From contig SCHM01000001.1 in assembly GCA_004123355.1 (NCBI GenBank), positions 10,178,193-10,242,192 on the forward strand: a DNA stretch of 64,000 nt, given 5' to 3'. The notes below the pieces were generated by a model. It had not been told where the DNA came from and searched no databases. It saw only the letters and a program-made list of their open reading frames with translations. The stretch is from Amphirosellinia nigrospora (Eukaryota > Ascomycota > Sordariomycetes > Xylariales > Xylariaceae). Numbering within the stretch: the stretch's first letter is position 1; the number at the start of each line of letters is the position of its first letter. Positions 58,907 through 60,336 of the stretch are shown here, piece by piece. The position numbers and the translations under genes were made by a program.

Positions 58907-60336
58907 ATGTTCGACGGACAGACTACTAGTGAAGATGTCATCGAGGCTTTCAAGCCTCAGATCAAAGGCAAGACCTTCGTCTTGATAGGTGCCGGGTATC
59001 CTAGTATCGGAAGTCAGAGTGCGTAATTCTCGGAGCTATTTTCTTCCTGTTTTGGCAACTTCTGAGCAGATATCTCCTTTGTGGGGCGTGATGATATCTA
59101 AAGCTTCTGATACCTTCACAGTTGACGCTCTGACCGGCAATTACTAACTCAAGAGTTGTAGTGGCCACCTACCTTGCCGGAGGGTCGCCGGCGCATATCC
59201 TCATCGCGTCTCGGACTGCCTCCAAAGTCGAGCCTTTGCTGAAGACCATTGCCGAGATTGACGGTGCGGTCAAGACCACCTTTGTACAAGTGGACACGAC
59301 GGACCACGAAGCGGTGCGCGAGGCAGCATCCAAGATCCTGGCAGCGGCACCCAAGATCGACGTACTTATTCATACAGCTGGGCCATGGCTACGAAAAGTA
59401 CACACTCGACAAGCAGGGGATAGAATTTCAACTATCTGCCAATCATGTGGGCGGGTTCTTGTTGACGAACCTGCTTGTACCGGCCAGTGCGTAATTCTCA
59501 GAATCATTTTCTTCCTATCCTGGCGACTTTCAGAGCTCAGGATTTCTGTCTTTTTTCTTCTTTGTAACAGATAGTATCCAGAAGCTTGTGAAGTCCTCAA
59601 AATTCACGTTCTAAACGTCAATAACTGACTCCCGAGTGTTGTAGTGCTGGCCGCGGGCGAGTCGCGCTTCGTCAACTTAACGAGCTCTGGGTACCGTCTT
59701 ACTCCTTTCCTCTTTGGCGACTGGAACTTTTCTCGAGCGAGACGTACGACCCTTGGGTTGCCTACGGTCAGGCGAAGACGGCGAACATCCTTTTTGCGTA
59801 CGGCTTGGGCAAGCGCCTTAAACAGCGTGGTCTCGCGGCCACGGTCGTCCACCCAGGATATAATGGCGACACGAAGCTGGGGGCGCACCTCACCTGGGAC
59901 GACTATGGGCTCATCGATGGCGTAATGAGGCGTACTCGTGGTATTGAATGGGTGGTGAGTGATTATACACATGCATGCCATACCTGAACGTACATGTTTC
60001 GGTCCATTCTGCACTGCTCTTCGCTTAAGCGTTGGCGTAATGAGAATCAACGAAATGCTTGACCTTCCCGAAAAGGAGACGATGTCGTGAGAGACAAAAG
60101 TCCATGCTGACCTTTGTATTTGCTCATAGTGGGATGAGCCGAGGTTCAAGAACTTCTCGCAAATAGCAGCAACGTCGCTTATCGCGGCACTTGATCCCGA
60201 TATCCCTGCGAAGTCGCCGGCGTTCCTATACAACAGTCAGGTCGCTGAACCGGAGGAGCACGCGACGGACCCAGAGAGCGTGGAAAAGTTGTGGAAACTC
60301 AGTGAGGAGTTGGTGAAGCAGGAATTCGAGTACTAA
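58907..60336 (+). CDS. Short-chain dehydrogenase (retinol dehydrogenase/WWOX-like SDR)
   Basis: Exons: 58907-59018, 59162-59485, 59645-59954 and 60130-60336, giving about 318 aa. The cofactor motif is in KGKTFVLIGAGYPSIGSQ, with a somewhat unusual GAGYPSIG in place of TGxxxGIG. Then come ILIASRTASKVEPLL, DTTDHEAVR and DVLIHTAGAMAYEKYTLDKQ (after two base losses, at GGG 59380-59382 and about 59388). GIEFQLSANHVGGFLLTNLL and FVNLTSSGYRLTPF follow, and the YxxxK active site is in VAYGQAKTANILFAYGL. VVHPGYNGDTKLG is the typical VHPG block. The C-terminus is WDEPRFKNFSQIAATSL and onward, ending KQEFEY. A third base loss lies near 59728. Introns 1 and 2 are homologous to each other (separate entries). 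The substrate is unknown. Confidence 0.87.
59019..59161 (+). repeat. Intron copy A of a homologous intron pair
   Basis: First intron of the SDR gene, 143 nt, starting GTGCGTAATTCTC and ending GTTGTAG. It aligns with the second intron of the same gene (59486-59644): in the first 43 nt there are no gaps and 35 identical positions. Further matches are GATA, AAGCTT.TGA and TTCAC in the middle and a GAG..GTTGTAG end. Both interrupt the gene after the first base of a codon (phase 1). This is what intron duplication or an introner-like element would leave. Confidence 0.75.
59486..59644 (+). repeat. Intron copy B of a homologous intron pair
   Basis: Second intron of the SDR gene, 159 nt, homologous to copy A. 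Its extra length comes mainly from a T/C-rich insertion in the middle (around 59545-59570). The eight differences in the first 43 aligned bases are all transitions. Confidence 0.75.

Follow-up and report, generated by a model that had tools for sequence, protein, structure and literature searches.

Two similar introns of an SDR gene as probable independent insertions of a large introner family that favours YA|TG sites

The closest described systems are found in Xylariales, where proliferating [D1,2] sister stwintrons, and the 'cropped' sister introns derived from them, are reported from Hypoxylaceae and Xylariaceae in the portions of the literature covered here (PMC8469720, PMC9024468, PMC12403724). 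In Dothideomycetes, a different fungal class, the introner-like elements (ILEs) of Fulvia and Dothistroma place similar introns in unrelated genes, and the consulted part of that study includes genes with two ILEs lying 145-626 bp apart, so that doubling within one gene is already known; its main text, as far as covered, makes no mention of a target or motif (PMC4457414). A eukaryote-wide survey, likewise consulted in part, describes introner families of 5 to >2000 copies, with a range of lengths and an enrichment in genes, among them ascomycete families without target-site duplications (TSDs) and TIRs; insertion motifs that are GC-rich are mentioned generally, and the sections covered name no short target site for the ascomycete families (PMC9860276).

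The family described here, recognized through two similar introns in one SDR-family gene, resembles the Dothideomycete ILEs in occupying unrelated genes, and the families of the eukaryote-wide survey in copy number, length range and gene enrichment. With the [D1,2] stwintrons, as far as the published accounts were covered, it shares the fungal order (judged by ITS), proliferation, and seamless insertion without a TSD. Also common to both are a near-terminal inverted repeat whose 3' arm lies between branch site and acceptor and which brings the terminal Gs together, a symmetry that is weaker in older copies, the occurrence of more than one member in a gene, and a long branch-to-acceptor distance. 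In the same parts of those accounts the two also differ. Each member of the present family is a single canonical intron, whereas a [D1,2] stwintron consists of two nested introns; the sequences are unrelated, the stwintron arms being GUAUAAAAAC / GUUUUUAURY (PMC12403724); copies number in the hundreds, as against 2-61 sister stwintrons per genome (Table 1 of PMC12403724); and insertion follows a clear YA|TG motif, whereas the stwintron papers report no site bias.

The hallmarks of stwintrons were also looked for directly. For the GGT start and internal YAG|T donor hybrid of [D1,2] stwintrons, the required upstream G is found in only 20 of 107 copies, and the internal CAG of the family consensus, as read, precedes A and not T, giving no acceptor-donor hybrid. 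The NTIRE-10 arms of stwintrons, GUAUAAAAAC and the complementary 3' arm, are absent from the family consensus on inspection. The stwintron 5' motif is present in this genome in an excess too weak to speak for or against that family (183 places against 84 in the control, at <=2 mismatches). In the main texts covered, the end sequences of the present family were not found, and a survey may already list it in a table without naming it.

An earlier note on this DNA had cited introner-like elements established in some Dothideomycetes, a context that looks wrong here in view of the ITS and 5.8S sequences, which resemble those of Xylariales. We take the host to be a member of this order, and presumably of Hypoxylaceae. 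A 1.3-Mb contig opens with three 5.8S rRNA copies (C10:104-58492). The contigs seen fall into two size classes, 8-14 Mb (four contigs) and 1.3-1.5 Mb (three), which suggests that small chromosomes, or arms, exist beside large ones.

The SDR gene lies on the forward strand of the window, the 64-kb stretch of DNA that was analysed. Exon 1 (58907..59018) is read as 112 nt that start with the ATG at 58907 and end in ...CAG A, in phase 1. It is followed by the first introner copy (59019..59161; 143 nt, GTGCGT...TAG, flanked by GA|TG), exon 2 (59162..59486), the second introner copy (59487..59644; 158 nt, GTGCGT...TAG, flanked by CA|TG) and exon 3 (59645..59954), which carries the SDR motif YGQAK and whose end, at a GTGAGT donor, is approximate and placed by reading. 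These coordinates agree with those first proposed for intron 1, and move the start of intron 2 from 59486, which is the last exon base, an A, to 59487; 468 nt separate the two intron starts. The Pfam domain adh_short (PF00106) covers residues 27-114 of the spliced peptide of exons 1 and 2, with the junction at residue 39. In exon 2, three-frame translations and reading place a frame change at about 59385-59395, and a second frame change follows in exon 3 after about 59730 (~59730-59745). Both are seen relative to paralogues, and would mean that the gene is decaying or that the assembly is wrong at these places.

The likeness of the two introns was borne out as first described. Over the first 43 positions 35 are identical (81.4%, from BLAST rows), all eight differences are transitions on inspection, and both introns are in phase 1 and split an A|TG codon, the phase of intron 2 being taken from the frame that the 3' half of exon 2 uses, because this exon carries a frame change. 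A genome search with intron 1 and a sequence-only model both put this likeness far above chance. The profile model gives E-values of 7e-29 for copy 1 and 2e-28 for copy 2, both of which are among the 45 copies from which it was built, and in the window it lists only these two introns, up to E = 10.

Searching the genome with each intron, the check that the earlier note had proposed for an introner family, uncovered many copies with common ends, of which 107 could be delimited from GT to YAG. With intron 1 as a DNA query, 40 of 48 candidate places were scored, the query itself included, at E-values of 7e-69 to 3e-9; 39 of these matches begin at query base 1, the remaining one begins at base 5, and the last base is reached by 19 of the 40. 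Intron 2 gave 28 places including itself, and a near-consensus copy gave 40 scored places of 113 candidates, all with E < 1e-29. A 21-nt 3' signature, running from branch site to acceptor, has 219 matches in the 48.1-Mb genome at <=2 mismatches and none in the reversed control, and a 13-nt 5' motif (<=1 mismatch) has 181, as compared with 41 in the control. In the stretches that were fetched, the profile model found 137 distinct matches, with both ends defined in the 107. A full-length copy is present at 54 of the 69 listed 3'-signature places examined; in the subset of 40 places chosen purely by that signature, 28 hold full-length copies and 12 partial matches only. Recapture between the two patterns gives 260-330 full-length copies, an estimate biased low, and simple arithmetic gives ~800 on a detection rate for the 3' signature of 3 in 11 among neighbouring copies, so that only the order of magnitude, from ~260 to ~800, can safely be relied on. 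The exact 3' signature was sought in viral contigs without a match, and a search for known RNA families found none inside three copies, with one sub-threshold match elsewhere in stretch L001.

The members have a median length of 146 nt (n=78), a consensus donor GTGCGT in 54 of 78 copies, and an acceptor that is TAG in 66 and CAG in 12 of the 78. A branch motif is recognizable in 102 of 107 copies, and in 90 the branch A lies 12 nt from the acceptor triplet; in copy 1, the branch site TACTAAC, the 3' arm region and the acceptor TAG are read at 59135..59161 of the forward strand. In the family consensus, the 5' region, corresponding to 59019..59043 of copy 1 on the same strand (..CTCGGAG..), forms a duplex with the branch-to-acceptor region, at a predicted -15.2 against -6.75 +/- 2.41 for shuffled sequences, 10 of 5000 of which were as low. 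This inverted repeat is near-terminal and imperfect, and the minimum-energy fold predicted for copy 1 itself does not contain the 5' arm pairing. Pairing within single copies is weaker in older ones (-7.30 vs -8.40); covariation of the stem within copies was not shown, same-copy pairing being -7.83 against -7.61 +/- 0.17 across copies, with 7 of 59 shifts as low; RNAalifold run on 45 copies does not predict the end stem; and the predicted folding of copies is not clearly better than that of their shuffles (mean z: -0.52 in the best 30 copies and 0.04 in the lowest 20). Dothideomycete ILEs have an unusually stable predicted RNA structure. The modelled terminal stem is at most a property of the propagating form and, since it is weaker in older copies, probably is not needed for splicing.

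Two similar introns in one gene might have arisen by duplication of one of them inside the gene, as a tandem or gene-conversion copy, an origin that the earlier note had offered beside an introner family. Their likeness and their closeness would suit it, and same-strand pairs within 2.5 kb are found 16 times among the 107 copies. Yet over their whole length the SDR introns are 60.8% identical, below the 64.9% mean of all family pairs, and they rank only 75th and 71st among each other's relatives, each having >=70 closer relatives among other copies. Duplication within the SDR gene is therefore a scarcely credible origin for this pair. Elsewhere in the family local copying may have taken place, as in 3 of the 16 neighbouring pairs a copy has its neighbour for its closest relative. 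For instance, C6:3214257 and C6:3214568 are neighbours that are 89% identical and, unlike the SDR pair, stand within each other's four nearest relatives, and are possibly the product of local copying. Crowding of copies takes other forms as well: four same-strand members lie within 1.7 kb, apparently in one gene, at L030 (1502-1647, 1875-2020, 2652-2775 and 3022-3147; C1:10817734-10819379), L006 and L023 hold three members each, and L043 holds two plus a weak third.

Decay by RIP-like C-to-T mutation, which the earlier note had raised to account for the transitions, is not supported by the family. The 107 copies have a ts/tv of 1.93, and the RIP signature looked for among them, an excess of C-to-T change at CpA over CpC, was not seen (0.182 at CpA, 0.198 at CpC); the all-transition pattern of the SDR pair is nothing special. 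Against the consensus the copies have a median identity of 81% and a maximum of 93%, and the closest pairs reach 95%; on these values the family is not too old to be recognized, nor does it consist of identical copies made in one burst.

Reading frames and homology support the view that the copies are introns of protein genes and would be seamlessly spliced. Twenty spliced host peptides, picked by the author from 34 listed, were scanned with Pfam; 19 have a match, and in 17 the domain spans the junction, the exceptions being L021 with no match, L015 with a match that ends before the junction, and L061 with one that begins just after it. The 19 matched hosts are diverse genes, which, with the common GT...YAG ends of the 107 copies, upholds the introner reading of the earlier note. 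Once the copies are removed, Prp2 (L051) and Spb1 (L061) align without gaps to solved chains, and neither the peroxidase (L007) nor the GH67 host shows a gap at the junction. A Sulfotransfer_4-domain gene (L024; C1:12310715) and what looks, from its peptide, like a related sulfotransferase (L082; C1:7885494) carry their introners at positions that read as different, as independent insertions would give.

Two tests of coding frame extend to the family at large. None of 105 copies leaves an open frame when the intron is retained; this open-frame test is weak, since 80 of 105 frames are open after splicing, against 66 with mismatched flanks and 46 in antisense. Among the 25 copies with no open frame, the one inspected, a near-consensus copy, was read as lying ~25 nt upstream of a stop codon. 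With 17 confirmed hosts as its training set, a codon-usage test of 88 held-out copies scored sense above antisense in 76 and above zero in 66, and preferred the in-frame join in 58, where ~29 are expected by chance. Some of the 12 held-out copies whose sense score is not above antisense may be non-coding or antisense. Phase 1 is found in 42 of 72 well-scored cases, an excess that may be due to codons beginning A|T.

For the SDR gene itself, paralogues give a view of the sites without introns. The closest, C4:697129-697662, is 56% identical and has one unbroken frame across both intron positions, as do some more distant paralogues. In an alignment of three paralogues no gap falls at either junction, and length differences of 1-6 residues fall further downstream, within a few residues of site 2. 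Because the closest paralogue is uninterrupted through both positions, both SDR introns were probably gained, a judgement drawn from paralogues of no more than 56% identity and for the two introns of the window only. Loss of the introns from all paralogues is possible, and is a less simple account than gain.

The exon bases beside the introns are clearly biased. Among 107 copies, position -2 is C or T in 84, -1 is A in 56, +1 is T in 84 and +2 is G in 58; chi-square values against the flank background are 182 at +1 and ~45 each at -2, -1 and +2, the next being 20 at +6 (G). Of 106 junctions, 28 show YATR and 49 show A|T, where the flanks have these at 1.4% and 6.4%, respectively; for A|T this is a sevenfold enrichment over background. 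Copies prefer YA|TG without being confined to it, the Prp2 copy being one that sits off-motif, in TG|AA. Adjacent target-site duplication was looked for as flank-to-flank matches of k=1-6, which never rise above shuffles, and offset duplication was sought in 144 combinations, the best giving 7 matches against 1.9 expected (59 shifted controls, highest 5), which we take as chance. In the main texts covered, a YA|TG target is unreported for related fungal families, and to that extent the motif is new.

Such a bias could reflect splicing, if T at +1 and A at -1 were needed beside this donor and acceptor, and its persistence among older copies, 20 of 29 of those scoring below 90 having T at +1, would fit this. 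Ordinary introns of the same stretches nonetheless show the opposite trend, albeit in a small sample: in a strict set of 12, for which the reversed control gave 0, -1 is G in 7, +1 is T in 2 and A|T is never found. Two looser scans for ordinary introns were discarded, the first, of 22 candidates with +1 T in 10, being contaminated by introner copies, and the second, with 35 candidates against 21 in reversed DNA, being mostly false. The intron-free sites also speak against a need imposed by splicing. In the closest SDR paralogue the codon at site 1 is ATT, that is, A|T where there is no element, and at site 2 it is TTG, with the T and G of the motif and no A; and in the GH67 homologue of known structure an Ile stands where the host has its A|TG Met. 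Two other SDR paralogues have ACA at site 1, with TTA and ATT at site 2. A splicing requirement is thus an improbable source of the bias. The same intron-free paralogue and GH67 homologue make it unlikely that the +1 T is carried by the element, and this idea was set aside.

Taken together, the two SDR introns are very probably independent insertions of one introner family, made up of short, non-coding, putatively canonical U2 introns that have multiplied through genes. How they multiply can be proposed only more tentatively. A route through spliced intron RNA is favoured, because the copies occupy sense coding positions and have seamless ends. New copies would start from excised intron RNA, which would reverse-splice into a transcript or into transcribed DNA at YA|TG. 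Reverse transcription, followed up by recombination or repair, would then fix the insertion, and the near-terminal consensus stem that joins both intron ends may aid reinsertion. Reverse splicing might be expected to favour ordinary exon-junction sequence (-1 G, as in 7 of 12 here) rather than YA|TG, and because YA|TG is not an ordinary exon junction, an extra recognition step is called for. A sequence-specific introner could supply it: machinery that reads about four bases would place the excised intron, as RNA or DNA, between the A and the T of YA|TG, leaving no TSD. By analogy, the excised intron with its snRNPs may read the target in a manner resembling ectopic retrohoming of a group II intron, though here the intron would be spliceosomal. 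Group II introns insert ectopically at sites resembling the home site. We regard sequence-specific insertion of this kind as possible and offer it tentatively.

The target also bears some resemblance to that of DNA elements. Helitrons insert at A|T without a TSD, and have TC...CTRR ends and a 3' hairpin. A non-autonomous element that makes no target duplication (Helitron-like, Crypton/tyrosine-recombinase-like, or using a single-strand transposase) might insert at YA|TR, with mainly sense genic copies surviving; the A|T target, the lack of adjacent duplication and the partly palindromic site resemble rolling-circle insertion, and the consensus carries the imperfect near-terminal inverted repeat. 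However, copies lie mostly in sense within coding sequence (76 of 88 held out), and the consensus, when read for Helitron ends and a hairpin, has the ends GT...GTAG rather than TC...CTRR and no strong 3' hairpin. The Helitron-type A|T target, at 49 of 106 junctions, is itself a preference and not a rule. The genome search for a Helitron_like_N domain returned 0, as did the same search in its 14 controls. Such a DNA element is an unlikely though possible alternative to an intron spread through its own excised form.

Spliceosomal intron gain is a long-standing open question, and the sections covered of the eukaryote-wide survey report ascomycete introners as outliers without the marks of DNA transposons (PMC9860276). 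The present family, which is large, inserts seamlessly at a defined motif and has host paralogues that lack the introns, offers a handle on the mechanism of gain, and the YA|TG motif predicts where new copies should land. If insertion is indeed sequence-specific, it would represent a specific route of mobilisation for ascomycete introners, which have so far seemed untargeted.
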